A DNA stretch of 64,000 nt from Crossaster papposus (lineage: Eukaryota; Echinodermata; Asteroidea; Velatida; Solasteridae). Below the pieces are notes generated by a model. The model had not been told where the DNA came from, made no database searches, and saw only the letters and a list, made by a program, of their open reading frames with translations. Position numbers and translations under genes: made by a program. The stretch covers positions 372,001-436,000 of the forward strand of contig JBAIAA010000013.1 in assembly GCA_037893245.1 (NCBI GenBank), in the 5' to 3' direction. Positions 1 to 64,000 of the stretch are shown here, one piece after another (the first letter of the stretch is position 1; each line of letters opens with the position of its first letter).

Positions 1-42
1 CCCATAACCCAGAGGTCCGAGGATCGAAACCTCGCTCTGCTA
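1..42 (+). pseudogene. Partial A1 initiator-tRNA-like element cut by the window edge
   Basis: The window opens inside the anticodon loop of an A1 copy. Its anticodon-stem 3' strand, variable region, T arm with an intact B-box-like GATCGAAAC, and acceptor 3' strand are present. The 5' 30 nt lie outside the window. The unit containing it then continues normally to 772. Confidence 0.9.
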
Positions 43-779
43 ACAAGTTTTTGGTATGACATGAGGTACTCGACTCGGAGTGACAAAGTAGACACTTTCT
101 TGGTCAGTACCCGAGAGTTTGGTTGACCACAACCTCGGTCTGCTCAGGATAATTATTTCCTTGAAAGTGATTTCATTTTCATTACAAATAGTTACGCAGA
201 GTGGTGCAGTGGGAAGTGTGATGGGCCCATAACCCAGAGGCCCGAGGACCGAAACCTCGCTCTGCTAAAGAGGTATTTTTGCTTCACTGTTATTCAAATT
301 TAATAATTATTTTAGAATGTTTTTATAATGTCTGCTTTTATTTTGTTTGTTGTTTTTCTAAATTTACATGAGGCATGGTGGCGCAGTGGAAGCTTGCTGG
401 GCCTATAACCCAGAGTGCCGAGGATCAAAACCTCGTTCTGCTGCTAATAAGTTTTTGGTATGACTTGAAGTACTCGACTCAGAGTGACAAAGTAGACCCT
501 TTCTTGGTCAGTAACCGAGAGTTCGGATGATCACAACCTCGGTCTGCTCAGGATAATTTTGTATTTGATAGGGATTTCATTTTCATTAAAAATAGTTACG
601 CAGAGTAGTGCAGCGGGAGCGTGATGGGCCCATAGCCCAGAGGTCCGAGGACCAAAACCTCGCTTTGCTAACTAGGTATGTTTGCTTCACTGCTATTCAC
701 ATTTAATAAATATTGTAGAATGTTTTTAGAATGTCTGCTTTCATTTTGTTTGCATTTTCTAAATTTACATGAGGCATAG

Positions 780-790
780 TGGCGCAGTTG
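780..790 (+). promoter_or_regulatory. A1 A-box-like site (one lesion)
   Basis: TGGCGCAGTTG matches the tRNA-iMet A box TGGCGCAGTGG except that the first G of the GG pair (tRNA G18) is T. This pattern is constant in nearly all A1 copies. It should weaken TFIIIC contact; this is inference. Confidence 0.6.
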
Positions 791-823
791 AAGCGTGCTG
801 GGCCCATAACCCAGAGGTCCGAG

Positions 824-832
824 GATCGAAAC
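824..832 (+). promoter_or_regulatory. A1 B-box-like site (intact)
   Basis: GATCGAAAC is the exact eukaryotic iMet form of the RNA polymerase III B box (GWTCRANNC). It is intact in most A1 copies from 1 to 53 kb. In many copies from 53 to 64 kb, and at 43.6 and 48.2 kb, the first G is T. Confidence 0.7.
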
Positions 833-849
833 CTCGCTCTGCTAACAAG

Positions 850-854
850 TTTTT
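850..854 (+). terminator. T5 run after A1 (Pol III-type terminator)
   Basis: TTTTT begins 6 nt after the A1 discriminator base. A run of four or more T shortly downstream is what eukaryotic tRNA genes use to stop RNA polymerase III. It is conserved in nearly all units. Confidence 0.6.
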
Positions 855-875
855 GGTATGACATGAGGTACTCGA

Positions 876-947
876 CTCGGAGTGACAAAGTAGACACTTT
901 CTTGGTCAGTACCCTAGAGTTTGGTTGACCACAACCTCGGTCTGCTC
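876..947 (+). pseudogene. A-relic: strongly diverged initiator-tRNA-derived sequence
   Basis: The spacer between A1 and A2 hides a third tRNA-derived element. Aligned without gaps to the canonical iMet core from position 3, I count about 46 matches in 70. The best-kept parts are the start (CGGAGTGACAAAGTAGAC against CAGAGTGGCGCAGTGGAA) and the end (ACCTCGGTCTGCT against ACCTCGCTCTGCT). In most copies the anticodon arm still pairs (CTTGG, loop TCAGTAC, CCGAG); in this copy CCTAG replaces CCGAG and weakens it. The T arm no longer pairs in tRNA register and instead contains GGTTG-ACCA-CAACC. The A-box region is lost. It could be an older decayed copy of the same gene. Confidence 0.78.
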
Positions 948-996
948 AGGATAATTATTTCCTTGAAAGTGATTTCATTTTCATTACAAATAGTTA

Positions 997-1069
997 CGCA
1001 GAGTGGTGCAGTGGGAAGCGTGATGGGCCCATAACCCAGAGGCCCGAGGACCGAAACCTCGCTCTGCTA
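997..1069 (+). pseudogene. A2: initiator tRNA-Met(CAT)-like element
   Basis: This 73-nt tRNA-like sequence has acceptor strands CGCAGAG/CTCTGCT pairing at six of seven positions (C1-T72 mismatched), D stem GTGC/GCGT with an 8-nt loop AGTGGGAA that keeps the GG pair, anticodon stem ATGGG/CCCAG (first pair A-G mismatched), loop CCCATAA with CAT, and T stem CGAGG/CCTCG. T55 has become C (loop ACCGAAA), which damages both the tRNA T loop and the B box. The A-box region TGGTGCAGTGGG fits the general consensus. It has the best acceptor stem, with B2, but is an unlikely functional tRNA because of T55C. In many copies from 21 kb onward the following T run is four instead of five, which makes those units 801 bp. 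Confidence 0.9.
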
Positions 1070-1173
1070 AAGAGGTATTTTTGCTTCACTGTTATTCAAA
1101 TTTAATAATTATTTTAGAATGTTTTTAGAATGTCTGTTTTTATTTTGTTTGTTGTTTTTCTAAATTTACATGA
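1070..1173 (+). repeat. T-rich spacer between A2 and B1
   Basis: This 104-bp AT-rich spacer (T-rich on the + strand) contains a short direct repeat AGAATGTTTTTAGAATGT and ends TCTAAATTTACATGA just before B1. The spacer between B2 and the next A1 (1473-1574) is its diverged twin with the same landmarks. I see no gene or other recognisable signal in it beyond the T run after A2. Confidence 0.8.
1078..1082 (+). terminator. T5 run after A2 (Pol III-type terminator)
   Basis: TTTTT starts 9 nt after A2. It is shortened to TTTT in copies near 21.5, 23.9, 24.7, 27.1, 32.7, 43.8, 48.5, 49.3 and 53.9 kb and most copies from 57 kb on, which accounts for the 801-bp unit length there. Confidence 0.55.
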
Positions 1174-1180
1174 GGCATGG

Positions 1181-1191
1181 TGGCGCAGTGG
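1181..1191 (+). promoter_or_regulatory. B1 A-box (intact)
   Basis: TGGCGCAGTGG equals the initiator tRNA A box. Copies at about 2.8, 5.2, 6.0, 6.8, 10.0, 11.6, 12.4 and 13.2 kb read TGGTGCAGTGG, still within consensus. Confidence 0.7.
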
Positions 1192-1224
1192 AAGCTTGCT
1201 GGGCCTATAACCCAGAGTGCCGAG

Positions 1225-1233
1225 GATCAAAAC
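1225..1233 (+). promoter_or_regulatory. B1 B-box (consensus)
   Basis: GATCAAAAC satisfies GWTCRANNC. The copy near 27.28 kb reads GATCGAAAC, the parental form, and looks like reversion or conversion from A1. Confidence 0.65.
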
Positions 1234-1253
1234 CTCGTTCTGCTGCTAATAAG

Positions 1254-1258
1254 TTTTT
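1254..1258 (+). terminator. T5 run after B1 (Pol III-type terminator)
   Basis: TTTTT starts 9 nt after B1. Some copies (20.9, 24.1, 35.3, 37.9, 46.4, 51.8 kb) have a G to T change giving TTTTTT; the copy at 18.49 kb has a still longer T run, producing an 803-bp unit. Copies at 44.8 and 50.2 kb are interrupted (TTGTTG). Confidence 0.55.
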
Positions 1259-1279
1259 GGTATGACTTGAAGTACTCGA

Positions 1280-1351
1280 CTCAGAGTGACAAAGTAGACC
1301 CTTTCTTGGTCAGTAACCGAGAGTTCGGATGATCACAACCTCGGTCTGCTC
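1280..1351 (+). pseudogene. B-relic: diverged initiator-tRNA-derived sequence
   Basis: This is the B-half counterpart of the A-relic and closer to the parent. Ungapped over 70 nt I count about 51 matches to the iMet core, including CAGAGTG at the start, AACC plus GAG in the anticodon-stem region, ATCACAACCT at the T arm and TCTGCT at the acceptor end. A B-box remnant GATCACAAC survives. The anticodon position reads AGT. The agreement in length and register for both relics makes chance similarity very unlikely. Confidence 0.82.
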
Positions 1352-1400
1352 AGGATAATTTTGTATTTGATAGGGATTTCATTTTCATTAAAAATAGTTA

Positions 1401-1472
1401 CGCAGAGTAGTGCAGCGGGAGCGTGATGGGCCCATAGCCCAGAGGTCCGAGGACCAAAACCTCGCTTTGCTA
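1401..1472 (+). pseudogene. B2: initiator tRNA-Met(CAT)-like element
   Basis: This tRNA-like sequence has acceptor CGCAGAG against CTTTGCT (one mismatch plus one G-T pair), position 9 changed to A, D loop AGCGGGA, anticodon stem ATGGG/CCCAG, loop CCCATAG (CAT kept, A38 to G), T stem CGAGG/CCTCG and T loop ACCAAAA (T55C and G57A). The A-box TAGTGCAGCGGG fits the general consensus; the B box is degraded. Several units read GAGCAG or GAGAAG in the acceptor strand instead of GAGTAG. Confidence 0.88.
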
Positions 1473-2282
1473 ACTAGGTATGTTTGCTTCACTGCTATTC
1501 ACATTTAATAAATATTGTAGAATGTTTTTAGAATGTCTGCTTTCATTTTGTTTGCATTTTCTAAATTTACATGAGGCATAGTGGCGCAGTTGAAGCGTGC
1601 TGGGCCCATAACCCAGAGGTCCGAGGATCGAAACCTCGCTCTGCTAACAAGTTTTTGGTATGACATAAGGTACTCGACTCGGAGTGACAAAGTAGACACT
1701 TTCTTGGTCAGTACCCGAGAGTTTGGTTGACCACAACCTCGGTCTGCTCAGGATAATTATTTCCTTGAAAGTGATTTCATTTTCATTACAAATAGTTACG
1801 CAGAGTGGTGCAGTGGGAAGCGTGATGGGCCCATAACCCAGAGGCCCGAGGACCGAAACCTCGCTCTGCTAAAGAGGTATTTTTGCTTCACTGTTATTCA
1901 AATTTAATAATTATTTTAGAATGTTTTTAGAATGTCTGCTTTTATTTTGTTTGTTGTTTTTCTAAATTTACATGAGGCATGGTGGCGCAGTGGAAGCTTG
2001 CTGGGCCTATAACCCATAGTGCCGAGGATCAAAACCTCGTTCTGCTGCTAATAAGTTTTTGGTATGACTTGAAGTACTCGACTCAGAGTGACAAAGTAGA
2101 CCCTTTCTTGGTCAGTAACCGAGAGTTCGGATGATCACAACCTCGGTCTGCTCAGGATAATTTTGTATTTGATAGGGATTTCATTTTCATTAAAAATAGT
2201 TACGCAGAGCAGTGCAGCGGGAGCGTGATGGGCCCATAGCCCAGAGGTCCGAGGACCAAAACCTCGCTTTGCTAACTAGGTA

Positions 2283-2287
2283 TTTTT
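2283..2287 (+). terminator. T5 run after B2 (Pol III-type terminator)
   Basis: TTTTT follows the B2 at 2203-2274 by 8 nt. In a subset of units (near 0.68, 1.48, 3.89, 8.70, 10.31 and 17.12 kb) the stretch is TATGTTTGC, leaving only TTT, so that B2 lacks a standard terminator. Confidence 0.5.
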
Positions 2288-10216: not shown

Positions 10217-13200
10217 ATAGTTACGCAGAGTAGTGCAGCGGGAGCGTGATGGGCCCATAGCCCAGAGGTCCGAGGACCAAAACCTCGCTTTGCTAACTAG
10301 GTATGTTTGCTTCACTGCTATTCACATTTAATAAATATTGTAGAATGTTTTTAGAATGTCTGCTTTCATTTTGTTTGCATTTTCTAAATTTACATGAGGC
10401 ATAGTGGCGCAGTTGAAGCGTGCTGGGCCCATAACCCAGAGGTCCGAGGATCGAAACCTCGCTCTGCTAACAAGTTTTTGGTATGACATAAGGTACTCGA
10501 CTCGGAGTGACAAAGTAGACACTTTCTTGGTCAGTACCCGAGAGTTTGGTTGACCACAACCTCGGTCTGCTCAGGATAATTATTTCCTTGAAAGTGATTT
10601 CATTTTCATTACAAATAGTTACGCAGAGTGGTGCAGTGGGAAGCGTGATGGGCCCATAACCCAGAGGCCCGAGGACCGAAACCTCGCTCTGCTAAAGAGG
10701 TATTTTTGCTTCACTGTTATTCAAATTTAATAATTATTTTAGAATGTTTTTAGAATGTCTGCTTTTATTTTGTTTGTTGTTTTTCTAAATTTACATGAGG
10801 CATGGTGGCGCAGTGGAAGCTTGCTGGGCCTATAACCCAGAGTGCCGAGGATCAAAACCTCGTTCTGCTGCTAATAAGTTTTTGGTATGACTTGAAGTAC
10901 TCGACTCAGAGTGACAAAGTAGACCCTTTCTTGGTCAGTAACCGAGAGTTCGGATGATCACAACCTCGGTCTGCTCAGGATAATTTTGTATTTGATAGGG
11001 ATTTCATTTTCATTAAAAATAGTTACGCAGAGCAGTGCAGCGGGAGCGTGATGGGCCCATAGCCCAGAGGTCCGAGGACCAAAACCTCGCTTTGCTAACT
11101 AGGTATTTTTGCTTCACTGCTATTCACATTTAATAAATATTGTAGAATGTTTTTAGAATGTCTGATTTCATTTTGTTTGCATTTTCTAAATTTACATGAG
11201 GCATAGTGGCGCAGTTGAAGCGTGCTGGGCCCATAACCCAGAGGTCCGAAGATCGAAACCTCGCTCTGCTAACAAGTTTTTGGTATGACATGAGGTACTC
11301 GACTCGGAGTGACAAAGTAGACACTTTCTTGGTCAGTACCCGAGAGTTTGGTAGACCACAACCTCGGTCTGCTCAGGATAATTATTTCCTTGAAAGTGAT
11401 TTCATTTTCATTACAAATAGTTACGCAGAGTGGTGCAGTGGGAAGCGTGATGGGCCCATAACCCAGAGGCCCGAGGACCGAAACCTCGCTCTGCTAAAGA
11501 GGTATTTTTGCTTCACTGTTATTCAAATATAATAATTATTTTAGAATGTTTTTAGAATGTCTGCTTTTATTTTGTTTGTTGTTTTTCTAAATTTACATGA
11601 GGCATGGTGGTGCAGTGGAAGCTTGCTGGGCCTATAACCCAGAGTGCCGAGGATCAAAACCTCGTTCTGTTGCTAATAAGTTTTTGGTATGACTTGAAGT
11701 ACTCGACTCAGAGTGACAAAGTAGACCCTTTCTTGGTCAGTAACCGAGAGTTCGGATGATCACAACCTCGGTCTGCTCAGGATAATTTTGTATTTGATAG
11801 GGATTTCATTTTCATTAAAAATAGTTACGCAGAGTAGTGCAGCGGGAGCGTGATGGGCCCATAGCCCAGAGGTCCGAGGACCAAAACCTCGCTTTGCTAA
11901 CTAGGTATTTTTGCTTCACTGCTATTCACATTTAATAAATATTGTAGAATGTTTTTAGAATGTCTGATTTCATTTTGTTTGCATTTTCTAAATTTACATG
12001 AGGCATAGTGGCGCAGTTGAAGCGTGCTGGGCCCATAACCCAGAGGTCCGAGGATCGAAACCTCGCTCTGCTAACAAGTTTTTGGTATGACATGAGGTAC
12101 TCGACTCGGAGTGACAAAGTAGACACTTTCTTGGTCAGTACCCGAGAGTTTGGTAGACCACAACCTCGGTCTGCTCAGGATAATTATTTCCTTGAAAGTG
12201 ATTTCATTTTCATTACAAATAGTTACGCAGAGTGGTGCAGTGGGAAGCGTGATGGGCCCATAACCCAGAGGCCCGAGGACCGAAACCTCGCTCTGCTAAA
12301 GAGGTATTTTTGCTTCACTGTTATTCAAATATAATAATTATTTTAGAATGTTTTTAGAATGTCTGCTTTTATTTTGTTTGTTGTTTTTCTAAATTTACAT
12401 GAGGCATGGTGGTGCAGTGGAAGCTTGCTGGGCCTATAACCCAGAGTGCCGAGGATCAAAACCTCGTTCTGTTGCTAATAAGTTTTTGGTATGACTTGAA
12501 GTACTCGACTCAGAGTGACAAAGTAGACCCTTTCTTGGTCAGTAACCGAGAGTTCGGATGATCACAACCTCGGTCTGCTCAGGATAATTTTGTATTTGAT
12601 AGGGATTTCATTTTCATTAAAAATAGTTACGCAGAGTAGTGCAGCGGGAGCGTGATGGGCCCATAGCCCAGAGGTCCGAGGACCAAAACCTCGCTTTGCT
12701 AACTAGGTATTTTTGCTTCACTGCTATTCACATTTAATAAATATTGTAGAATGTTTTTTAGAATGTCTGATTTCATTTTGTTTGCATTTTCTAAATTTAC
12801 ATGAGGCATAGTGGCGCAGTTGAAGCGTGCTGGGCCCATAACCCAGAGGTCCGAGGATCGAAACCTCGCTCTGCTAACAAGTTTTTGGTATGACATGAGG
12901 TACTCGACTCGGAGTGACAAAGTAGACACTTTCTTGGTCAGTACCCGAGAGTTTGGTAGACCACAACCTCGGTCTGCTCAGGATAATTATTTCCTTGAAA
13001 GTGATTTCATTTTCATTACAAATAGTTACGCAGAGTGGTGCAGTGGGAAGCGTGATGGGCCCATAACCCAGAGGCCCGAGGACCGAAACCTCGCTCTGCT
13101 AAAGAGGTATTTTTGCTTCACTGTTATTCAAATATAATAATTATTTTAGAATGTTTTTAGAATGTCTGCTTTTATTTTGTTTGTTGTTTTTCTAAATTTA

Positions 13201-14847: not shown

Positions 14848-15210
14848 CCAGAGTGCCGAGGATCAAAACCTCGTTCTGCTGCTAATAAGTTTTTGGTATG
14901 ACTTGAAGTACTCGACTCAGAGTGACAAAGTAGACCCTTTCTTGGTCAGTAACCGAGAGTTCGGATGATCACAACCTCGGTCTGCTCAGGATAATTTTGT
15001 ATTTGATAGGGATTTCATTTTTATTAAAAATAGTTACGCAGAGTAGTGCAGCGGGAGCGTGATGGGCCCATAGCCCAGAGGTCCGAGGACCAAAACCTCG
15101 CTTTGCTAACTAGGTATTTTTGCTTCACTGCTATTCACATTTAATAAATATTGTGGAATGTTTTTAGAATGTCTGCTTTCATTTTGTTTGCATTTTCTAA
15201 ATTTACATGA

Positions 15211-15607
15211 GGCATAGTGGCGCAGTTGAAGCGTGCTGGGACCATAACCAGAGGTCCGAGGATCGAAACCTCGCTCTGCTAACAAGTTTTTGGTATGACA
15301 TGAGGTACTCGACTCGGAGTGACAAAGTAGACACTTTCTTGGTCAGTAACCGAGAGTTCGGATGATCACAACCTCGGTCTGCTCAGGATAATTTTGTATT
15401 TGATAGGGATTTCATTTTCATTAAAAATAGTTACGCAGAGTAGTGCAGCGGGAGCGTGATGGGCCCATAGCCAAGAGGTCCGAGGACCAAAACCTCGCTT
15501 TGCTAACTAGGTATTTTTGCTTCACTGCTATTCACATTTAATAAATATTGTAGAATGTTTTTAGAATGTCTGATTTCATTTTGTTTGCATTTTCTAAATT
15601 TACATGA
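15211..15607 (+). repeat. Half-length hybrid unit (397 bp): A/B crossover in the relic
   Basis: This unit starts as an A half (A1 with one C lost, then the A-type spacer) and switches to B type within the relic: CTTGGTCAGTA is followed by ACCGAGAGTTCGGATGATC, the B form. A2, one spacer and B1 are missing. The 397 bp is what a crossover between A- and B-relic predicts (401 minus the 3-bp spacing difference minus the 1-bp deletion in A1). The adjoining units at 14409 and 15608 are close relatives. Confidence 0.9.
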
Positions 15608-37104: not shown

Positions 37105-37145
37105 CTATAACCCAGAGTGCCGAGGATCAAAACCTCGTTCTGCTG
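37074..37145 (+). pseudogene. A1/B1 hybrid tRNA-like element at a duplication junction
   Basis: The 5' part is A1 (GGCATAG, AGTTGAAGCGTGCTGGG) and the 3' part is B1 (CCTATAACCCAGAGTGCC, GATCAAAACC). The switch falls just before the anticodon. The remaining sequence to 37474 is the rest of a B half, giving a 401-bp unit. It combines the A1 D-loop lesion with the B1 anticodon TAT. Confidence 0.92.
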
Positions 37146-42700: not shown

Positions 42701-42909
42701 TTTGATAGGGATTTCATTTTCATTAAAAATAGTTACGCAGAGTAGTGCAGCGGGAGCGTGATGGGCCCATAGCCCAGAGGTCCGAGGACCAAAACCTCGC
42801 TTTGCTAACTAGGTATTTTTGCTTCACTGCTATTCACATTTAATAAATATTGTAGAATGTTTTTAGAATGTCTGCTTTCATTTTGTTTGCATTTTCTAAA
42901 TTTACATGA

Positions 42910-43532: not shown

Positions 43533-44069
43533 GGCATAGTGGCGCAGTTGAAGCGTGCTGGGCCCATAACCCAGAGGTCCGAGTATCGAAACCTCGCTCT
43601 GCTAACAAGTTTTTGGTATGACATGAGGTACTCGACTCAGAGTGACAAAGTAGACACTTTCTTGGTCAGTACCCGAGGGTTTGGTTGACCACAACCTCGG
43701 TCTGCTCAGGATAATTATTTCCTTGAAAGTGATTTCATTTTCATTACAAATAGTTACGCAGAGTGGTGCAGTGGGAAGCGTGATGGGCCCATAACCCAGA
43801 GGCCCGAGGACCGAAACCTCGCTCTGCTAAAGAGGTATTTTGCTTCACTGTTATTCAAATTTAATACTTATTTTAGAATGTTTTTAGAATGTCTGCTTTT
43901 ATTTTGTTTGTTGTTTTTCTAAATTTACATGAGGCATGGTGGCGCAGTGGAAGCTTGCTGGGCCTATAACCCAGAGTGCCGAGGATCAAAACCTCGTTCT
44001 GCTGCTAATAAGTTTTTGGTATGACTTGAAGTACTCGACTCAGAGTGACAAAGTAGACCCTTTCTTGGT

Positions 44070-49502: not shown

Positions 49503-52500
49503 CAGTACCCGAGAGTTTGGATGATCACAACCTCGGTCTGCTCAGGATAATTTTGTATTTGATAGGGATTTCATTTTCATTAAAAATAGTTACGCAGAGT
49601 AGTGCAGCGGGAGCGTGATGGGCCCATAGCCCAGAGGTCCGAGGACCAAAACCTCGCTTTGCTAACTAGGTATTTTTGCTTCACTGCTATTCACATTTAA
49701 TAAATATTGTAGAATGTTTTTAGAATGTCTGCTTTCATTTTGTTTGCATTTTCTAAATTTACATGAGGCATAGTGGCGCAGTTGAAGCGTGCTGGGCCCA
49801 TAACCCAGAGGTCCGAGGATCGAAACCTCGCTCTGCTAACAAGTTTTTGGTATGACATGAGGTACTCGACTCGGAGTGACAAAGTAGACACTTTCTTGGT
49901 CAGTACCCGAGAGTTTGGTTGACCACAACCTCGGTCTGCTCAGGATAATTATTTCCTTGAAAGTGATTTCATTTTCATTACAAATAGTTACGCAGAGTGG
50001 TGCAGTGGGAAGCGTGATGGGCCCATAACCCAGAGGCCCGAGGACCGAAACCTCGCTCTGCTAAAGAGGTATTTTTGCTTCACTGTTATTCAAATTTAAT
50101 AATTATTTTAGAATGTTTTTAGAATGTCTGCTTTTATTTTGTTTGTTGTTTTTCTAAATTTACATGAGGCATGGTGGCGCAGTGGAAGCTTGCTGGGCCT
50201 ATAACCCAGAGTGCCGAGGATCAAAACCTCGTTCTGCTGCTAATAAGTTGTTGGTATGACTTGAAGTACTCGACTCAGAGTGACAAAGTAGACCCTTTCT
50301 TGGTCAGTAACCGAGAGTTCGGATGATCACAACCTCGGTCTGCTCAGGATAATTTTGTATTTGATAGGGATTTCATTTTCATTAAAAATAGTTACGCAGA
50401 GTAGTGCAGCGGGAGCGTGATGGGCCCATAGCCCAGAGGTCCGAGGACCAAAACCTCGCTTTGCTAACTAGGTATTTTTGCTTCACTGCTATTCACATTT
50501 AATAAATATTGTAGAATGTTTTTAGAATGTCTGCTTTCATTTTGTTTGCATTTTCTAAATTTACATGAGGCATAGTGGCGCAGTTGAAGCGTGCTGGGCC
50601 CATAACCCAGAGGTCCGAGGATCGAAACCTCGCTCTGCTAACAAGTTTTTGGTATGACATGAGGTACTCGACTCGGAGTGACAAAGTAGACACTTTCTTG
50701 GTCAGTACCCGAGAGTTTGGTTGACCACAACCTCGGTCTGCTCAGGATAATTATTTCCTTGAAAGTGATTTCATTTTCATTACAAATAGTTACGCAGAGT
50801 GGTGCAGTGGGAAGCGTGATGGGCCCATAACCCAGAGGCCCGAGGACCGAAACCTCGCTCTGCTAAAGAGGTATTTTTGCTTCACTGTTATTCAAATTTA
50901 ATAATTATATTAGAATGTTTTTAGAATGTCTGCTTTTATTTTGTTTGTTGTTTTTCTAAATTTACATGAGGCATGGTGGCGCAGTGGAAGCTTGCTGGGC
51001 CTATAACCCAGAGTGCCGAGGATCAAAACCTCGTTCTGCTGCTAATAAGTTTTTGGTATGACTTGAAGTACTCGACTCAGAGTGACAAAGTAGACCCTTT
51101 CTTGGTCAGTAACCGAGAGTTCGGATGATCACAACCTCTGTCTGCTCAGGATAATTTTGTATTTGATAGGGATTTCATTTTCATTAAAAATAGTTACGCA
51201 GAGTAGTGCAGCGGGAGCGTGATGGGCCCATAGCCCAGAGGTCCGAGGACCAAAACCTCGCTTTGCTAACTAGGTATTTTTGCTTCACTGCTATTCACAT
51301 TTAATAAATATTGTAGAATGTTTTTAGAATGTCTGCTTTCATTTTGTTTGCATTTTCTAAATTTACATGAGGCATAGTGGCGCAGTTGAAGCGTGCTGGG
51401 CCCATAACCCAGAGGTCCGAGGATCGAAACCTCGCTCTGCTAACAAGTTTTTGGTATGACATGAGGTACTCGACTCGGAGTGACAAAGTAGACACTTTCT
51501 TGGTCAGTACCCGAGAGTTTGGTTGACCACAACCTCGGTCTGCTCAGGATAATTATTTCCTTGAAAGTGATTTCATTTTCATTACAAATAGTTACGCAGA
51601 GTGGTGCAGTGGGAAGCGTGATGGGCCCATAACCCAGAGGCCCGAGGACCGAAACCTCGCTCTGCTAAAGAGGTATTTTTGCTTCACTGTTATTCAAATT
51701 TAATAATTATTTTAGAATGTGTTTAGAATGTCTGCTTTTATTTTGTTTGTTGTTTTTCTAAATTTACATGAGGCATGGTGGCGCAGTGGAAGCTTGCTGG
51801 GCCTATAACCCAGAGTGCCGAGGATCAAAACCTCGTTCTGCTGCTAATAATTTTTTGGTATGACTTGAAGTACTCGACTCAGAGTGACAAAGTAGACCCT
51901 TTCTTGGTCAGTAACCGAGAGTTCGGATGATCACAACCTCGGTCTGCTCAGGATAATTTTGTATTTGATAGGGATTTCATTTTCATTAAAAATAGTTACG
52001 CAGAGTAGTGCAGCGGGAGCGTGATGGGCCCATAGCCCAGATGTCCGAGGACCAAAACCTCGCTTTGCTAACTAGGTATTTTTGCTTCACTGCTATTCAC
52101 ATTTAATAAATATTGTAGAATGTTTTTAGAATGTCTGCTTTCATTTTGTTTGCATTTTCTAAATTTACATGAGGCATAGTGGCGCAGTTGAAGCGTGCTG
52201 GGCCCATAACCCAGAGGTCCGAGGATCGAAACCTCGCTCTGCTAACAAGTTTTTGGTATGACATGAGGTACTCGACTCGGAGTGACAAAGTAGACACTTT
52301 CTTGGTCAGTACCCGAGAGTTTGGTTGACCACAACCTCGGTCTGCTCAGGATAATTATTTCCTTGAAAGTGATTTCATTTTCATTACAAATAGTTATGCA
52401 GAGTGGTGCAGTGGGAAGCGTGATGGGCCCATAACCCAGAGGCCCGAGGACCGAAACCTCGCTCTGCTAACAAGTTTTTGGTATGACATGAGGTACTCGA

Positions 52501-53083
52501 CTCGGAGTGACAAAGTAGACACTTTCTTGGTCAGTACCCGAGAGTTTGGATGATCACAACCTCGGTCTGCTCAGGATAATTTTGTATTTGATAGGGATTT
52601 CATTTTCATTAAAAATAGTTAGGCAGAGTAGTGCAGCGGGAGCGTGATGGGCCCATAGCCCAGAGGTCCGAGGACCAAAACCTCGCTTTGCTAACTAGGT
52701 ATTTTTGCTTCACTGCTATTCACATTTAATAAATATTGTAGAATGTTTTTAGAATGTCTGCTTTCATTTTGTTTGCATTTTCTAAATTTACATGAGGCAT
52801 AGTGGCGCAGTTGAAGCGTGCTGGGCCCATAACCCAGAGGTCCGAGGATCGAAACCTCGCTCTGCTAACAAGTTTTTGGTATGACATGAGGTACTCGACT
52901 CGGAGTGACAAAGTAGACACTTTCTTGGTCAGTACCCGAGAGTTTGGTTGACCACAACCTAGGTCTGCTCAGGATAATTATTTCCTTGAAAGTGATTTCA
53001 TTTTCATTACAAATAGTTACGCAGAGTGGTGCAGTGGGAAGCTTGATGGGCCCATAACCCAGAGGCCCGAGGACCGAAACCTC
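49503..53083 (+). repeat. 3.6-kb segment, second copy (offset 5433 bp)
   Basis: Second copy of 44070-47650. Just past its end the A2 at about 53.03 kb carries private changes (GAAGCTTGATGGG, CTCTGTTAAAG). The former creates an extra AAGCTT not expected in A2. Confidence 0.85.
52173..52795 (+). repeat. 623-bp unit lacking B1 (copy 5)
   Basis: Same junctions and the GTTAGGCAGAG variant of copy 4, from which it is displaced by 5433 bp. It differs in A2 (GGCCCGAGG). Confidence 0.88.
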
Positions 53084-56000
53084 GCTCTGTTAAAGAGGTA
53101 TTTTTGCTTCACTGTTATTCAAATTTAATAATTATTTTAGAATGTTTTTAGAATGTCTGCTTTTATTTTGTTTGTTGTTTTTCTAAATTTACATGAGGCA
53201 TGGTGGCGCAGTGGAAGCTTGCTGGGCCTATAACCCAGAGTGCCGAGGATCAAAACCTCGTTCTGCTGCTAATAAGTTTTTGGTATGACTTGAAGTACTC
53301 GACTCAGAGTAACAAAGTAGACCCTTTCTTGGTCAGTAACCGAGAGTTCGGATGATCACAACCTCGGTCTGCTCAGGATAATTTTGTATTTGATAGGGAT
53401 TTCATTTTCATTAAAAATAGTTACGCAGAGTAGTGCAGCGGGAGCGTGATGGGCCCATAGCCCAGAGGTCCGAGGACCAAAAGCTCGCTTTGCTAACTAG
53501 GTATTTTTGCTTCACTGCTATTCACATTTAATAAATATTGTAGAATGTTTTTAGAATGTCTGCTTTCATTTTGTTTGCATTTTCTAAATTTACATGAGGC
53601 ATAGTGGCGCAGTTGAAGCGTGCTGGGCCCATAACCCAGAGGTCCGAGTATCGAAACCTCGCTCTGCTAACAAGTTTTTGGTATGACATGAGGTACTCGA
53701 CTCAGAGTGACAAAGTAGACACTTTCTTGGTCAGTACCCGAGAGTTTGGTTGACCACAACCTCGGTCTGCTCAGGATAATTATTTCCTTGAAAGTGATTT
53801 CATTTTCATTACAAATAGTTACGCAGAGTGGTGCAGTGGGAAGCGTGATGGGCCCATAACCCAGAGGCCCGAGGACCGAAACCTCGCTCTGCTAAAGAGG
53901 TATTTTGCTTCACTGTTATTCAAATTTAATACTTATTTTAGAATGTTTTTAGAATGTCTGCTTTTATTTTGTTTGTTGTTTTTCTAAATTTACATGAGGC
54001 ATGGTGGCGCAGTGGAAGCTTGCTGGGCCTATAACCCAGAGTGCCGAGGATCAAAACCTCGTTCTGCTGCTAATAAGTTTTTGGTATGACTTGAAGTACT
54101 CGACTCAGAGTGACAAAGTAGACCCTTTCTTGGTCAGTAACCGAGAGTTCGGATGATCACAACCTCGGTCTGCTCAGGATAATTTTTTATTTGATAGGGA
54201 TTTCATTTTCATTAAAAATAGTTACGCAGAGTAGTGCAGCGGGAGCGTGATGGGCCCATAGCCCAGAGGTCCGAGGACCAAAACCTCGCTTTGCTAACTA
54301 GGTATTTTTGCTTCACTGCTATTCACATTTAATAAATATTGTAGAATGTTTTTAGAATGTCTGATTTCATTTTGTTTGCATTTTCTAAATTTACATGAGG
54401 CATAGTGGCGCAGTTGAAGCGTGCTGGGCCCATAACCCAGAGGTCCGAGGATCGAAACCTCGCTCTGCTAACAAGTTTTTGGTATGACATGAGGTACTCG
54501 ACTCGGAGTGACAAAGTAGACACTTTCTTGGTCAGTACCCGAGAGTTTGGTTGACCACAACCTCGGTCTGCTCAGGATAATTATTTCCTTGAAAGTGATT
54601 TCATTTTCATTACAAATAGTTACGCAGAGTGGTGCAGTGGGAAGCGTGATGGGCCCATAACCCAGAGGCCCGAGGACCGAAACCTCGCTCTGCTAAAGAG
54701 GTATTTTTGCTTCACTGTTATTCAAATTTAATAATTATTTTAAAATGTTTTTAGAATGTCTGCTTTTATTTTGTTTGTTGTTTTTCTAAATCTACATGAG
54801 GCATGGTGGCGCAGTGGAAGCTTGCTGGGCCTATAACCCAGAGTGCCGAGGATCAAAACCTCGTTCTGCTGCTAATAAGTTTTTGGTATGACTTGAAGTA
54901 CTCGACTCAGAGTGACAAAGTAGACCCTTTCTTGGTCAGTAACCGAGAGTTCGGATGATCACAACCTCGGTCTGCTCAGGATAATTTTTTATTTGATAGG
55001 GATTTCATTTTCATTAAAAATAGTTACGCAGAGTAGTGCAGCGGGAGCGTGATGGGCCCATAGCCCAGAGGTCCGAGGACCAAAACCTCGCTTTGCTAAC
55101 TAGGTATTTTTGCTTCATTGCTATTCACATTTAATAAATATTGTAGAATGTTTTTAGAATGTCTGATTTCATTTTGTTTGCATTTTCTAAATTTACATGA
55201 GGCATAGTGGCGCAGTTGAAGCGTGCTGGGCCCATAACCCAGAGGTCCGAGGATCGAAACCTCGCTCTGCTAACAAGTTTTTGGTATGACATGAGGTACT
55301 CGACTCGGAGTGACAAAGTAGACACTTTCTTGGTCAGTACCCGAGAGTTTGGTTGACCACAACCTCGGTCTGCTCAGGATAATTATTTCCTTGAAAGTGA
55401 TTTCATTTTCATTACAAATAGTTACGCAGAGTGGTGCAGTGGGAAGCGTGATGGGCCCATAACCCAGAGGCCCGAGGACCGAAACCTCGCTCTGCTAAAG
55501 AGGTATTTTTGCTTCACTGTTATTCAAATTTAATAATTATTTTAAAATGTTTTTAGAATGTCTGCTTTTATTTTGTTTGTTGTTTTTCTAAATCTACATG
55601 AGGCATGGTGGCGCAGTGGAAGCTTGCTGGGCCTATAACCCAGAGTGCCGAGGATCAAAACCTCGTTCTGCTGCTAATAAGTTTTTGGTATGACTTGAAG
55701 TACTCGACTCAGAGTGACAAAGTAGACCCTTTCTTGGTCAGTAACCGAGAGTTCGGATGATCACAACCTCGGTCTGCTCAGGATAATTTTTTATTTGATA
55801 GGGATTTCATTTTCATTAAAAATAGTTACGCAGAGTAGTGCAGCGGGAGCGTGATGGGCCCATAGCCCAGAGGTCCGAGGACCAACACCTCGCTTTGCTA
55901 ACTAGGTATTTTTGCTTCACTGCTATTCACATTTAATAAATATTGTAGAATGTTTTTAGAATGTCTGCTTTCATTTTGTTTGCATTTTCTAAATTTACAT

Positions 56001-58005
56001 GAGGCATAGTGGCGCAGTTGAAGCGTGCTGGGCCCATAACCCAGAGGTCCGAGTATCGAAACCTCGCTCTGCTAACAAGTTTTTGGTATGACATGAGGTA
56101 CTCGACTCAGAGTGACAAAGTAGACACTTTCTTGGTCAGTACCCGAGGGTTTGGTTGACCACAACCTCGGTCTGCTCAGGATAATTATTTCCTTGAAAGT
56201 GATTTCATTTTCATTACAAATAGTTACGCAGAGTGGTGCAGTGGGAAGCGTGATGGGCCCATAACCCAGAGGCCCGAGGACCGAAACCTCGCTCTGCTAA
56301 AGAGGTATTTTTGCTTCACTGTTATTCAAATTTAATAATTATTTTAAAATGTTTTTAGAATGTCTGCTTTTATTTTGTTTGTTGTTTTTCTAAATCTACA
56401 TGAGGCATGGTGGCGCAGTGGAAGCTTGCTGGGCCTATAACCCAGAGTGCCGAGGATCAAAACCTCGTTCTGCTGCTAATAAGTTTTTGGTATGACTTGA
56501 AGTACTCGACTCAGAGTGACAAAGTAGACCCTTTCTTGGTCAGTAACCGAGAGTTCGGATGATCACAACCTCGGTCTGCTCAGGATAATTTTTTATTTGA
56601 TAGGGATTTCATTTTCATTAAAAATAGTTACGCAGAGTAGTGCAGCGGGAGCGTGATGGGCCCATAGCCCAGAGGTCCGAGGACCAACACCTCGCTTTGC
56701 TAACTAGGTATTTTTGCTTCACTGCTATTCACATTTAATAAATATTGTAGAATGTTTTTAGAATGTCTGCTTTCATTTTGTTTGCATTTTCTAAATTTAC
56801 ATGAGGCATAGTGGCGCAGTTGAAGCGTGCTGGGCCCATAACCCAGAGGTCCGAGTATCGAAACCTCGCTCTGCTAACAAGTTTTTGGTATGACATGAGG
56901 TACTCGACTCAGAGTGACAAAGTAGACACTTTCTTGGTCAGTACCCGAGGGTTTGGTTGACCACAACCTCGGTCTGCTCAGGATAATTATTTCCTTGAAA
57001 GTGATTTCATTTTCATTACAAATAGTTACGCAGAGTGGTGCAGTGGGAAGCGTGATGGGCCCATAACCCAGAGGCCCGAGGACCGAAACCTCGCTCTGCT
57101 AAAGAGGTATTTTGCTTCACTGTTATTCAAATTTAATACTTATTTTAGAATGTTTTTAGAATGTCTGCTTTTATTTTGTTTGTTGTTTTTCTAAATTTAC
57201 ATGAGGCATGGTGGCGCAGTGGAAGCTTGCTGGGCCTATAACCCAGAGTGCCGAGGATCAAAACCTCGTTCTGCTGCTAATAAGTTTTTGGTATGACTTG
57301 AAGTACTCGACTCAGAGTGACAAAGTAGACCCTTTCTTGGTCAGTAACCGAGAGTTCGGATGATCACAACCTCGGTCTGCTCAGGATAATTTTTTATTTG
57401 ATAGGGATTTCATTTTCATTAAAAATAGTTACGCAGAGTAGTGCAGCGGGAGCGTGATGGGCCCATAGCCCAGAGGTCCGAGGACCAAAACCTCGCTTTG
57501 CTAACTAGGTATTTTTGCTTCACTGCTATTCACATTTAATAAATATTGTAGAATGTTTTTAGAATGTCTGCTTTCATTTTGTTTGCATTTTCTAAATTTA
57601 CATGAGGCATAGTGGCGCAGTTAAAGCTTGCTGGGCCCATAACCCAGAGGTCCGAGTATCGAAACCTCGCTCTGCTAACAAGTTTTTGGTATGACATGAG
57701 GTACTCGACTCAGAGTGACAAAGTAGACACTTTCTTGGTCAGTACCCGAGAGTTTGGTTGACCACAACCTCGGTCTGCTCAGGATAATTATTTCCTTGAA
57801 AGTGATTTCATTTTCATTACAAATAGTTACGCAGAGTGGTGCAGTGGGAAGCGTGATGGGCCCATAACCCAGAGGCCCGAGGACCGAAACCTCGCTCTGC
57901 TAAAGAGGTATTTTGCTTCACTGTTATTCAAATGTAATACTTATTTTAGAATGTTTTTAGAATGTCTGCTTTTATTTTGTTTGTTGTTTTTCTAAATTTA
58001 CATGA

Positions 58006-58077
58006 GGCATGGTGGCGCAGTGGAAGCTTGCTGGGCCAATAACCCAGAGTGCCGAGGATCAAAACCTCGTTCTGCTG
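58006..58077 (+). pseudogene. B1 variant with anticodon AAT
   Basis: The anticodon loop reads CCAATAA instead of CCTATAA, so the anticodon is AAT (58038-58040), a second step away from the initiator CAT. The same variant recurs at 60442-60444, 62044-62046 and 63646-63648, every second or third unit. The rest of the element is the normal B1, with A box and B box kept. Confidence 0.88.
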
Positions 58078-61000
58078 CTAATAAGTTTTTGGTATGACTT
58101 GAAGTACTCGACTCAGAGTGACAAAGTAGACCCTTTCTTGGTCAGTAACCGAGAGTTCGGATGATCACAACCTCGGTCTGCTCAAGATAATTTTTTATTT
58201 GATAGGGATTTCATTTTCATTAAAAATAGTTACGCAGAGTAGTGCAGCGGGAGCGTGATGGGCCCATAGCCCAGAGGTCCGAGGACCAAAACCTCGCTTT
58301 GCTAACTAGGTATTTTTGCTTCATTGCTATTCACATTTAATAAATATTGTAGAATGTTTTTAGAATGTCTGATTTCATTTTGTTTGCATTTTCTAAATTT
58401 ACATGAGGCATAGTGGCGCAGTTGAAGCGTGCTGGGCCCATAACCCAGAGGTCCGAGGATCGAAACCTCGCTCTGCTAACAAGTTTTTGGTATGACATGA
58501 GGTACTCGACTCGGAGTGACAAAGTAGACACTTTCTTGGTCAGTACCCGAGAGTTTGGTTGACCACAACCTCGGTCTGCTCAGGATAATTATTTCCTTGA
58601 AAGTGATTTCATTTTCATTACAAATAGTTACGCAGAGTGGTGCAGTGGGAAGCGTGATGGGCCCATAACCCAGAGGCCCGAGGACCGAAACCTCGCTCTG
58701 CTAAAGAGGTATTTTTGCTTCACTGTTATTCAAATTTAATAATTATTTTAAAATGTTTTTAGAATGTCTGCTTTTATTTTGTTTGTTGTTTTTCTAAATC
58801 TACATGAGGCATGGTGGCGCAGTGGAAGCTTGCTGGGCCTATAACCCAGAGTGCCGAGGATCAAAACCTCGTTCTGCTGCTAATAAGTTTTTGGTATGAC
58901 TTGAAGTACTCGACTCAGAGTGACAAAGTAGACCCTTTCTTGGTCAGTAACCGAGAGTTCGGATGATCACAACCTCGGTCTGCTCAGGATAATTTTTTAT
59001 TTGATAGGGATTTCATTTTCATTAAAAATAGTTACGCAGAGTAGTGCAGCGGGAGCGTGATGGGCCCATAGCCCAGAGGTCCGAGGACCAACACCTCGCT
59101 TTGCTAACTAGGTATTTTTGCTTCACTGCTATTCACATTTAATAAATATTGTAGAATGTTTTTAGAATGTCTGCTTTCATTTTGTTTGCATTTTCTAAAT
59201 TTACATGAGGCATAGTGGCGCAGTTGAAGCGTGCTGGGCCCATAACCCAGAGGTCCGAGTATCGAAACCTCGCTCTGCTAACAAGTTTTTGGTATGACAT
59301 GAGGTACTCGACTCAGAGTGACAAAGTAGACACTTTCTTGGTCAGTACCCGAGGGTTTGGTTGACCACAACCTCGGTCTGCTCAGGATAATTATTTCCTT
59401 GAAAGTGATTTCATTTTCATTACAAATAGTTACGCAGAGTGGTGCAGTGGGAAGCGTGATGGGCCCATAACCCAGAGGCCCGAGGACCGAAACCTCGCTC
59501 TGCTAAAGAGGTATTTTGCTTCACTGTTATTCAAATTTAATACTTATTTTAGAATGTTTTTAGAATGTCTGCTTTTATTTTGTTTGTTGTTTTTCTAAAT
59601 TTACATGAGGCATGGTGGCGCAGTGGAAGCTTGCTGGGCCTATAACCCAGAGTGCCGAGGATCAAAACCTCGTTCTGCTGCTAATAAGTTTTTGGTATGA
59701 CTTGAAGTACTCGACTCAGAGTGACAAAGTAGACCCTTTCTTGGTCAGTAACCGAGAGTTCGGATGATCACAACCTCGGTCTGCTCAGGATAATTTTTTA
59801 TTTGATAGGGATTTCATTTTCATTAAAAATAGTTACGCAGAGTAGTGCAGCGGGAGCGTGATGGGCCCATAGCCCAGAGGTCCGAGGACCAAAACCTCGC
59901 TTTGCTAACTAGGTATTTTTGCTTCACTGCTATTCACATTTAATAAATATTGTAGAATGTTTTTAGAATGTCTGCTTTCATTTTGTTTGCATTTTCTAAA
60001 TTTACATGAGGCATAGTGGCGCAGTTGAAGCGTGCTGGGCCCATAACCCAGAGGTCCGAGTATCGAAACCTCGCTCTGCTAACAAGTTTTTGGTATGACA
60101 TGAGGTACTCGACTCAGAGTGACAAAGTAGACACTTTCTTGGTCAGTACCCGAGAGTTTGGTTGACCACAACCTCGGTCTGCTCAGGATAATTATTTCCT
60201 TGAAAGTGATTTCATTTTCATTACAAATAGTTACGCAGAGTGGTGCAGTGGGAAGCGTGATGGGCCCATAACCCAGAGGCCAGAGGACCGAAACCTCGCT
60301 CTGCTAAAGAGGTATTTTGCTTCACTGTTATTCAAATTTAATACTTATTTTAGAATGTTTTTAGAATGTCTGCTTTTATTTTGTTTGTTGTTTTTCTAAA
60401 TTTACATGAGGCATGGTGGCGCAGTGGAAGCTTGCTGGGCCAATAACCCAGAGTGCCGAGGATCAAAACCTCGTTCTGCTGCTAATAAGTTTTTGGTATG
60501 ACTTGAAGTACTCGACTCAGAGTGACAAAGTATACCCTTTCTTGGTCAGTAACCGAGAGTTCGGATGATCACAACCTCGGTCTGCTCAGGATAATTTTTT
60601 ATTTGATAGGGATTTCATTTTCATTAAAAATAGTTACGCAGAGTAGTGCAGCGGGAGCGTGATGGGCCCATAGCCCAGAGGTCCGAGGACCAAAACCTCG
60701 CTTTGCTAACTAGGTATTTTTGCTTCATTGCTATTCACATTTAATAAATATTGTAGAATGTTTTTAGAATGTCTGATTTCATTTTGTTTGCATTTTCTAA
60801 ATTTACATGAGGCATAGTGGCGCAGTTGAAGCGTGCTGGGCCCATAACCCAGAGGTCCGAGGATCGAAACCTCGCTCTGCTAACAAGTTTTTGGTATGAC
60901 ATGAGGTACTCGACTCAGAGTGACAAAGTAGACACTTTCTTGGTCAGTACCCGAGGGTTTGGTTGACCACAACCTCGGTCTGCTCAGGATAATTATTTCC

Positions 61001-61611
61001 TTGAAAGTGATTTCATTTTCATTACAAATAGTTACGCAGAGTGGTGCAGTGGGAAGCGTGATGGGCCCATAACCCAGAGGCCCGAGGACCGAAACCTCGC
61101 TCTGCTAAAGAGGTATTTTGCTTCACTGTTATTCAAATTTAATACTTATTTTAGAATGTTTTTAGAATGTCTGCTTTTATTTTGTTTGTTGTTTTTCTAA
61201 ATTTACATGAGGCATGGTGGCGCAGTGGAAGCTTGCTGGGCCTATAACCCAGAGTGCCGAGGATCAAAACCTCGTTCTGCTGCTAATAAGTTTTTGGTAT
61301 GACTTGAAGTACTCGACTCAGAGTGACAAAGTAGACCCTTTCTTGGTCAGTAACCGAGAGTTCGGATGATCACAACCTCGGTCTGCTCAGGATAATTTTT
61401 TATTTGATAGGGATTTCATTTTCATTAAAAATAGTTACGCAGAGTAGTGCAGCGGGAGCGTGATGGGCCCATAGCCCAGAGGTCCGAGGACCAAAACCTC
61501 GCTTTGCTAACTAGGTATTTTTGCTTCACTGCTATTCACATTTAATAAATATTGTAGAATGTTTTTAGAATGTCTGCTTTCATTTTGTTTGCATTTTCTA
61601 AATTTACATGA

Positions 61612-63213
61612 GGCATAGTGGCGCAGTTGAAGCGTGCTGGGCCCATAACCCAGAGGTCCGAGTATCGAAACCTCGCTCTGCTAACAAGTTTTTGGTATGA
61701 CATGAGGTACTCGACTCAGAGTGACAAAGTAGACACTTTCTTGGTCAGTACCCGAGAGTTTGGTTGACCACAACCTCGGTCTGCTCAGGATAATTATTTC
61801 CTTGAAAGTGATTTCATTTTCATTACAAATAGTTACGCAGAGTGGTGCAGTGGGAAGCGTGATGGGCCCATAACCCGGAGGCCCGAGGACCGAAACCTCG
61901 CTCTGCTAAAGAGGTATTTTGCTTCACTGTTATTCAAATGTAATACTTATTTTAGAATGTTTTTAGAATGTCTGCTTTTATTTTGTTTGTTGTTTTTCTA
62001 AATTTACATGAGGCATGGTGGCGCAGTGGAAGCTTGCTGGGCCAATAACCCAGAGTGCCGAGGATCAAAACCTCGTTCTGCTGCTAATAAGTTTTTGGTA
62101 TGACTTGAAGTACTCGACTCAGTGTGACAAAGTAGACCCTTTCTTGGTCAGTAACCGAGAGTTCGGATGATCACAACCTCGGTCTGCTCAGGATAATTTT
62201 TTATTTGATAGGGATTTCATTTTCATTAAAAATAGTTACGCAGAGTAGTGCAGCGGGAGCGTGATGGGACCATAGCCCAGAGGTCCGAGGACCAAAACCT
62301 CGCTTTGCTAACTAGGTATTTTTGCTTCACTGCTATTCACATTTAATAAATATTGTAGAATGTTTTTAGAATGTCTGCTTTCATTTTGTTTGCATTTTCT
62401 AAATTTACATGAGGCATAGTGGCGCAGTTGAAGCGTGCTGGGCCCATAACCCAGAGGTCCGAGTATCGAAACCTCGCTCTGCTAACAAGTTTTTGGTATG
62501 ACATGAGGTACTCGACTCAGAGTGACAAAGTAGACACTTTCTTGGTCAGTACCCGAGAGTTTGGTTGACCACAACCTCGGTCTGCTCAGGATAATTATTT
62601 CCTTGAAAGTGATTTCATTTTCATTACAAATAGTTACGCAGAGTGGTGCAGTGGGAAGCGTGATGGGCCCATAACCCAGAGGCCCGAGGACCGAAACCTC
62701 GCTCTGCTAAAGAGGTATTTTGCTTCACTGTTATTCAAATTTAATACTTATTTTAGAATGTTTTTAGAATGTCTGCTTTTATTTTGTTTGTTGTTTTTCT
62801 AAATTTACATGAGGCATGGTGGCGCAGTGGAAGCTTGCTGGGCCTATAACCCAGAGTGCCGAGGATCAAAACCTCGTTCTGCTGCTAATAAGTTTTTGGT
62901 ATGACTTGAAGTACTTGACTCAGAGTGACAAAGTAGACCCTTTCTTGGTCAGTAACCGAGAGTTCGGATGATCACAACCTCGGTCTGCTCAGGATAATTT
63001 TGTATTTGATAGGGATTTCATTTTCATTAAAAATAGTTACGCAGAGTAGTGCAGCGGGAGCGTGATGGGCCCATAGCCCAGAGGTCCGAGGACCAAAACC
63101 TCGCTTTGCTAACTAGGTATTTTTGCTTCACTGCTATTCACATTTAATAAATATTGTAGAATGTTTTTAGAATGTCTGCTTTCATTTTGTTTGCATTTTC
63201 TAAATTTACATGA
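61612..63213 (+). repeat. Two-unit (1602-bp) higher-order repeat near the right edge
   Basis: Two 801-bp units alternate in type. TAACCCGGAG in A2 (61871/63473), CCAATAAC in B1 and AGTGTGACAA in the B-relic (62121/63723) recur at exactly 1602 bp. The next copy begins at 63214 and runs to the window edge, so the number of copies beyond is unknown. Confidence 0.82.
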
Positions 63214-64000
63214 GGCATAGTGGCGCAGTTGAAGCGTGCTGGGCCCATAACCCAGAGGTCCGAGTATCGAAACCTCGCTCTGCTAACAAGTTTTTGGTAT
63301 GACATGAGGTACTCGACTCAGAGTGACAAAGTAGACACTTTCTTGGTCAGTACCCGAGAGTTTGGTTGACCACAACCTCGGTCTGCTCAGGATAATTATT
63401 TCCTTGAAAGTGATTTCATTTTCATTACAAATAGTTACGCAGAGTGGTGCAGTGGGAAGCGTGATGGGCCCATAACCCGGAGGCCCGAGGACCGAAACCT
63501 CGCTCTGCTAAAGAGGTATTTTGCTTCACTGTTATTCAAATTTAATACTTATTTTAGAATGTTTTTAGAATGTCTGCTTTTATTTTGTTTGTTGTTTTTC
63601 TAAATTTACATGAGGCATGGTGGCGCAGTGGAAGCTTGCTGGGCCAATAACCCAGAGTGCCGAGGATCAAAACCTCGTTCTGCTGCTAATAAGTTTTTGG
63701 TATGACTTGAAGTACTCGACTCAGTGTGACAAAGTAGACCCTTTCTTGGTCAGTAACCGAGAGTTCGGATGATCACAACCTCGGTCTGCTCAGGATAATT
63801 TTTTATTTGATTGGGATTTCATTTTCATTAAAAATAGTTACGCAGAATAGTGCAGCGGGAGCGTGATGGGCCCATAGCCCAGAGGTCCGAGGACCAAAAC
63901 CTCGCTTTGCTAACTAGGTATTTTTGCTTCATTGCTATTCACATTTAATAAATATTGTAGAATGTTTTTAGAATGTCTGATTTCATTTTGTTTGCATTTT

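Follow-up and report, generated by a model that had tools for sequence, protein, structure and literature searches.

A satellite array in Crossaster papposus that probably descends from a small cluster of initiator tRNA-Met genes

We analyzed 64,000 nucleotides of genomic DNA from the echinoderm Crossaster papposus (contig JBAIAA010000013.1, positions 372,001 to 436,000 of the forward strand; hereafter, the window), for which an earlier note, drawn up without database searches, had proposed a satellite made of initiator transfer RNA (tRNA)-Met gene copies. We found that the window is a single, uninterrupted head-to-tail tandem array that repeats every 802 bp, each regular unit carrying six homologous tRNA-like elements in the same orientation, termed A1, C1, B1, A2, C2, and B2. 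This satellite DNA probably descended from a small initiator-tRNA-Met gene cluster, by duplication of a half-unit followed by amplification and unequal exchange. The array would have no role in translation and would persist as an ordinary satellite.

Comparison of the window with itself gave the highest match at a lag of 802 (0.743), followed by a lag of 1604 (0.589). Tandem Repeats Finder (TRF), run with periods limited to at most 500, reported one array at positions 1-52471 and another, at the half-period of 398, at positions 52398-64000. Using six elements cut by hand out of one unit as queries, we located 481 non-overlapping initiator-tRNA-like elements, all of them on the plus strand (81 A1, 85 C1, 80 B1, 76 A2, 77 C2, and 82 B2). 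They follow the regular order A1-C1-B1-A2-C2-B2 in 75 units, with seven irregular places. Neighboring elements are at most 107 bp apart, an ordinary spacer size, and there is thus no long insertion. The first A1 is truncated by the start of the window and the array is still running at its last base, both array ends being located outside. An array of at least 64 kb with about 480 elements in one orientation had indeed been described in the earlier note, as had the presence of four better and two worse preserved elements per 802 bp, and both descriptions are supported here. Its wording that the satellite is built almost wholly from tRNA gene copies was too strong, as tRNA-like sequence accounts for 56% of the unit (A/B 36.5%, C 19.7%) and spacer for 43.8%. 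We aligned 72 of the 75 regular units (794-804 bp in length) for all counts of variation, leaving out the unit truncated where the window begins, the final unit, and the unit preceding an extra half-unit. The irregular places (five A1-C1-B1-C1-B2 units, the loss of a half-unit, and the extra half-unit) were omitted from these counts as well, and the truncated first A1 was omitted from the copy censuses of anticodon, pairs, and boxes. The array and a representative unit are organized as follows.

1-64000, plus strand: continuous satellite array, its higher-order unit consisting of two ~401-bp halves (lag-802 self-match, TRF, 481 ordered elements, 72 aligned units)
772-1573, plus strand: representative 802-bp unit (boundaries from the unit alignment)
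772-844, plus strand: A1, the best-kept initiator-tRNA-Met-like element, anticodon CAT, 20 of 21 pairs (Rfam tRNA 49.8 bits, ARAGORN, pair census)
845-868, plus strand: spacer after A1 with a T5 run, a possible RNA polymerase III (Pol III) terminator (consensus, T-run census)
869-946, plus strand: C1, decayed tRNA-iMet (initiator tRNA-Met)-derived element, 12 of 21 pairs (local alignment to A1; no Rfam tRNA match)
947-995, plus strand: spacer after C1 (unit alignment)
996-1069, plus strand: B1, tRNA-iMet-like, 19 of 21 pairs, an extra G in the D-loop, mismatches at position 1 and in the anticodon stem (Rfam 38.0 bits)
1070-1172, plus strand: spacer after B1 (unit alignment)
1173-1245, plus strand: A2, tRNA-iMet-like, anticodon changed to TAT, AAT in a few copies (Rfam 35.5 bits, anticodon census)
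1246-1270, plus strand: spacer after A2 with a T5 run (unit alignment)
1271-1350, plus strand: C2, decayed tRNA-iMet-derived element, 13 of 21 pairs (local alignment to A1)
1351-1399, plus strand: spacer after C2 (unit alignment)
1400-1472, plus strand: B2, tRNA-iMet-like, 19 of 21 pairs, marginal in Rfam (32.1 bits in the single-unit scan; 7 of 82 copies at the gathering score)
1473-1573, plus strand: spacer after B2 (unit alignment)

By eye, a short direct repeat, TAGAATGTTTT / TAGAATGTCTG, is also visible within the spacer after B1 (1070-1172).

The Rfam tRNA model RF00005 matched 222 of the 481 elements at its gathering score, all on the plus strand (105 and 117 in the two half-windows). 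By type, matches were found for 77/81 A1, 72/76 A2, 66/80 B1, and 7/82 B2 elements, and for 0/85 C1 and 0/77 C2 elements. In a scan of a single unit with laxer filters, A1, B1, A2, and B2 scored from 49.8 down to 32.1 bits (cut-off 29), whereas the C elements were not matched by the tRNA model, and five hits to other families fell far under the respective cut-offs. The covariance-model test set beforehand in the earlier note thus returned tRNA for A1, A2, B1, and B2 and no better family, with B2 being marginal. ARAGORN called 57 elements, every one of them as tRNA-Met(CAT), and sequences within 3 mismatches of a 39-base initiator core occur 139 times in the window and in none of 100 shuffles. 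Eukaryotic initiator tRNAs are marked by A54 and A60 in the T-loop, by three G:C pairs closing the anticodon stem, and by the anticodon CAT, and their first pair is A1:U72. Inspected by eye for these marks, the A1 consensus carries A54, A60, the three anticodon-stem G:C pairs, and CAT. The B types have a C at position 55, A2 fails the anticodon mark, and the first pair is not A1:U72 in any of the four A/B consensuses but G:U in the A types and C:U in the B types. A1 is identical to the fly initiator tRNA at 68 of 72 positions and to the human elongator tRNA-Met at 42 of 71. A1 is clearly initiator-like rather than elongator-like, in agreement with the earlier assignment.

We compared the C elements to A1 by local alignment. 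C1 scores 40 (shuffle mean 13.5) and C2 scores 58 (shuffle mean 14.1), and 0 of 1000 shuffles were as good in either case. Against the A/B elements of the window, scores range from 31 to 46 for C1 and from 38 to 62 for C2. The best of 78 panel tRNAs was a tRNA-Met for both (25 and 32), in a panel that is rich in tRNA-Met because it was fetched from unrelated viral contigs by a Met anticodon-arm pattern. Despite the missing Rfam match, the C elements are relatives, because none of 1000 shuffles aligns as well.

None of the element types retains an intact cloverleaf. The consensus of A1 keeps 20 of the 21 pairs, those of A2, B1, and B2 keep 19, and C1 and C2 keep 12 and 13, respectively. All 21 pairs are present in 0 of 318 complete A/B copies, and 20 of 21 are found in 59/80 A1, 1/76 A2, 0/80 B1, and 2/82 B2 copies. 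A U:C mismatch in the acceptor stem is common to both A types, and both B types have one anticodon-stem mismatch in addition to their C:U first pair. The CAT anticodon is kept in all A1 (80/80), B1 (80/80), and B2 (82/82) copies, whereas A2 carries TAT in 72/76 and AAT in 4/76 copies, TAT being an Ile-type anticodon on an initiator-like element. In C2 (1271-1350 and its equivalents), 8 of 21 pairs are gone, yet the consensus anticodon stem is wholly paired and closes a 7-base loop, TCAGTAA; by eye, one pair of this stem is altered on both sides with respect to the A types (G-C to T-G). We calculated minimum-energy folds for one copy of each element type, and 0 of 6 formed all four arms. Part or all of the T-arm stem is predicted in the A and B elements, and the acceptor stem also in B1 and B2. 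Fold stability is not striking when compared with shuffles (z from -1.75 to 0.01; 11-100 of 200 shuffles equally stable). The predicted folds are neutral with respect to a tRNA origin and lend no support to the idea that structure has been preserved.

The sequence differences are organized in a hierarchy. Across the 72 aligned units, the mean difference between units is 1.24%, with a maximum of 2.87%. Within the consensus unit, 360 of 398 positions are identical between the two halves, which are thus ~10% apart. The array hence combines near-identical units in long head-to-tail order with diverged subunits inside a homogeneous multimer (360/398 between halves versus ~99% between units), as is typical of satellite DNA. 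From half to half, identity is 64/73 for A, 72/78 for C, and 67/73 for B, and 20/22, 42/49, and 92/101 for the spacers, indicating that tRNA-like and spacer parts have diverged about equally. A and B elements are 77-90% identical to each other, and the C elements share 60-72% identity with them. The damage that distinguishes the element types is present in the repeat consensus, and departures from the consensus are rare, their mean frequency not exceeding 1.05% per site in any region. The damage is therefore older than the amplification, and the statement in the earlier note that each copy decays is misleading for units that differ by only 1.2%. We envision that the founder was a stretch of ~401 bp derived from a small initiator-tRNA-Met gene cluster, which would have contained three elements in one orientation, the good genes A and B and the older pseudogene C. 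This set would then have been duplicated, and its halves would have drifted to ~90% identity before the 802-bp unit was amplified by unequal exchange to at least ~80 copies.

Three kinds of irregular units interrupt the regular order.

15210-15606, plus strand: short unit A1-C1/C2-B2 that has lost a half-unit, with the junction within the C element (front of C1, back of C2)
35648-36270, plus strand: variant unit A1-C1-B1-C1-B2 of 623 bp; the same form is found at 38276, 42909, 46739, and 52172
37073-37145, plus strand: A1/A2 chimera (front of A1, back of A2) that opens an extra half-unit

In all three kinds, the junctions are located within tRNA-like elements. In each of the five A1-C1-B1-C1-B2 units, the body of B1 passes straight into an A1-type spacer after the stretch common to the tRNA 3' ends. 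The elements joined in this way are not equivalent, and the tRNA part is the only sequence that they detectably have in common. These five like units may descend from a single event. The junctions inside tRNA-like elements show misaligned exchange. Variants are common to adjacent units in 82 of 272 steps, compared with 28.4 +/- 4.9 expected, a sharing between neighbors as expected from exchange or conversion, which are indistinguishable here. Local homogenization together with signs of unequal exchange is again a property of satellites. Homogenization would have been strongest among neighbors, and misaligned exchange between non-equivalent tRNA elements would have reshaped the array.

We next consider constraint on the tRNA parts. 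Among the aligned units, 34 of 252 non-CpG sites are variable in the A/B elements and 48 of 351 in the spacers (p=1.0). Stems and loops vary at 17/138 and 17/114 sites, respectively (p=0.58). The pair is preserved in 10 of 25 changes to stems, versus 31% expected. We detected no present selection for tRNA function, because tRNA and spacer sites are equally variable. At CpG dinucleotides, we counted 0.36 changes per site in the A/B elements and 0.63 in the C elements, compared with 0.17 and 0.11 at the other sites of the same elements, an excess of roughly 2-fold in A/B and 5.5-fold in C. The consensus spacers contain 0 CpG, with 5.0 expected. The hypervariability of CpG and its absence from the spacers hint at a methylated host genome, with methylation in the germ line.

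It had been suggested in the earlier note that a single gene locus was amplified. We thus compared the sequences flanking the different element types. Aligning the 45-base upstream flanks of A with those of B gave scores of 22, 19, 16, and 15 in the four possible comparisons. For simulated flank copies, the mean score at 10% substitution is 73 without insertions or deletions (indels) and 66 with 3% indels, and at 23% substitution it is 50 and 46, respectively; within this range of divergence, no more than 1.5% of 1000 runs yield a score of 22 or lower. The same 45-base upstream windows compared from half to half served as positive controls and yielded 67 for A and 62 for B. When whole spacers were compared between types, 12 of 12 comparisons fell within the range of shuffles (lowest 73/500). 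A and B elements that are 77-90% identical but have unrelated upstream flanks suggest descent from a cluster that already existed, a better fit than one gene, rendering the 'one gene' of the earlier proposal doubtful. In the simplest reading, the genes A and B would have been kept alike by selection while their flanks drifted.

Several results weigh against descent from such a cluster or against a satellite free of function. Of 32 flank comparisons, the smallest p value (0.0495) is that for the upstream flanks of A1 and B1. The 24-base spacer after A gives the flank test little power, and some of the 45-base windows (downstream of A and upstream of C) enter the adjacent tRNA element, as the spacer there is 24-25 bases long. 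For flanks of C at 30% substitution, 6-13% of simulations score as low as observed, and C, being 28-40% diverged, may be an old tandem copy that arose together with its flank. These points would fit a model in which one tRNA gene was amplified in tandem with its flanks and then decayed copy by copy, as would the homology and common orientation of all six elements. However, a strong alignment would be expected of neutral upstream flanks that had diverged as far as A and B, and none is seen, and type-specific damage in the repeat consensus places the decay before the amplification. We thus regard amplification of a single gene as improbable. A second set of results concerns Pol III. Using A box and B box consensus sequences, we found both boxes together with a run of at least 4 T within 30 bases in 63/80 A1 and 1/76 A2 copies, and in none of the B or C elements. 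Having kept Pol III boxes and a terminator, A1 may allow for transcription. In addition, changes restricted to a single A/B element are located in the second half in 11 of 13 cases (6 in A2, 5 in B2, and 1 each in A1 and B1; p=0.022, post hoc; 7 of 20 differing columns, common to two elements or with several states, are omitted from this count), as if A1 and B1 had been constrained for longer. The C elements lean in the opposite direction (5 changes in C1, 2 in C2, 1 undecided). A1 may hence be read by Pol III or be bound by TFIIIC, and a satellite with one promoter per unit could provide decoy initiator-like RNAs, a chromatin barrier, or a centromere platform. Its function would then rest on Pol III binding rather than on the tRNA. 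Taken as a whole, we consider this scenario unlikely, if a little less so than amplification of a single gene.

Preservation of both Pol III boxes and the T-run in these A1 copies would also be compatible with a working tandem array of initiator tRNA genes that feeds translation, as in Entamoeba, and so would the CAT anticodon in all 80 complete A1 copies and the 20 of 21 pairs found in 59 of them. Yet each consensus type is damaged, be it by the U:C acceptor mismatch in A, by the first pair and the anticodon stem in B, or by TAT/AAT in A2. We found no A/B copy with an intact set of pairs, no conservation of tRNA parts relative to spacer, and C elements that are down to 12-13 pairs. Clear pseudogene copies are not reported for the Entamoeba arrays (PMC2652664). 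A working gene array is thus very unlikely. We likewise regard it as very unlikely that the array represents a tRNA-derived short interspersed element (SINE), a retrotransposon with a tRNA head that was trapped in a tandem array. tRNA-derived SINEs are common. Satellites with SINE and tRNA parts are described for Harttia fish (PMC11955569). In our consensus, tRNA homology extends to the last acceptor base of A and B, and by eye no CCA or A-rich tail follows. A T5 run is located within ~12 bases after A1 and A2, resembling a genomic tRNA gene with its trailer. No relation was detectable among the spacers that follow A, B, and C (12/12 comparisons, with low power for the 24-base spacer), whereas a common body would be expected of copies of one SINE. 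Descent from a small cluster of initiator tRNA genes hence remains our preferred interpretation.

We compared the array to other tandem repeats that contain Pol III genes. The tDNA of Xenopus laevis is a tandem unit of ~3 kb with several different, mostly intact tRNA genes, including the initiator. It resembles our array in having initiator genes in a tandem unit, and differs in unit size and in its different and mostly intact genes. The 5SHindIII satellite of Hoplias malabaricus has a 360-bp unit, 95 bp of which are gene-like and 265 bp similar to non-transcribed spacer, and it probably derives from 5S ribosomal DNA (PMC2713275). As in our array, a tandem unit descends in part from a Pol III gene and in part consists of spacer. 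In our case, the source is a tRNA rather than 5S rRNA, there are six gene-like segments per unit rather than the one described for 5SHindIII, and the latter has a known centromeric location (PMC2713275). Damaged gene-like segments alternating with spacer, and no detected constraint, place the C. papposus array alongside such Pol III-gene-derived satellites. Harttia catfish have satellites composed of SINEs or long interspersed elements (LINEs) and parts of tRNA genes, including satellite DNAs derived from tRNAs; these are composites with intervening sequence, and the part of the report at hand contains neither an initiator-tRNA source nor a higher-order unit (PMC11955569). The tRNA arrays of Entamoeba are, like ours, long and head-to-tail, with tRNA genes and spacers. 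They are reported to have 1-5 acceptor types per unit, no clear pseudogenes, and short tandem repeats in their spacers (PMC2652664), whereas we found a single tRNA type and 0/318 complete A/B copies with all pairs. A human repeat at 1q23.3 also holds tRNA genes within a homogeneous (98%) tandem repeat, but its unit is 7.3 kb long, GC-rich, and CTCF-bound, with several tRNA genes per unit and 9-43 units (PMC4041453). In a 2010 survey of 74 eukaryotic genomes, tRNA tandem repeats are given as reported until then only from Entamoeba (PMC2888827). Among the matches listed in the openly licensed literature (titles and abstract starts), there was no satellite derived from initiator tRNA genes, which is weak evidence of absence.

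We also searched for relatives of the satellite in other sequences. Exact patterns revealed none in viral contigs (three patterns) or in genome contigs (two patterns). In BLAST searches with one unit, 11 phage and 75 plasmid records matched, none of which covers 80% of the unit; coverage was at most 26% among the matches listed (10 of 11 phage and 10 of 75 plasmid records), and 2 of the 10 listed phage records are annotated as tRNA-Met. Matches to an 18-base anticodon-arm pattern were found in 18 viral contigs, none of which represents the satellite. ARAGORN calls a tRNA-Met at the match in 17 of 18, and the match in contig L008 is located in a tRNA-like stretch. This stretch, at 11260-11380 on the minus strand of the 277-kb viral contig, is tRNA-Met-like, shares the anticodon arm of the satellite, and is not called by ARAGORN; a closely similar counterpart is called as tRNA-Met in contig L016.

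Satellites derived from Pol III genes are known, and here the source is an initiator tRNA. A probably small cluster of essential tRNA genes has thus probably been turned into an apparently ordinary, non-coding satellite. Most satellites have no recognizable ancestor. Here, the remnants of an essential gene allow for an ordered history, from cluster to decay, half-unit duplication, amplification, and misaligned exchange within the tRNA parts. For genome annotation, tRNA finders will list dozens of initiator tRNA genes in this array, as illustrated by the 57 ARAGORN calls, despite the lack of any intact A/B cloverleaf. If the surviving Pol III promoters were bound, the array would make it possible to test whether Pol III factors contribute to the formation or maintenance of satellite arrays.

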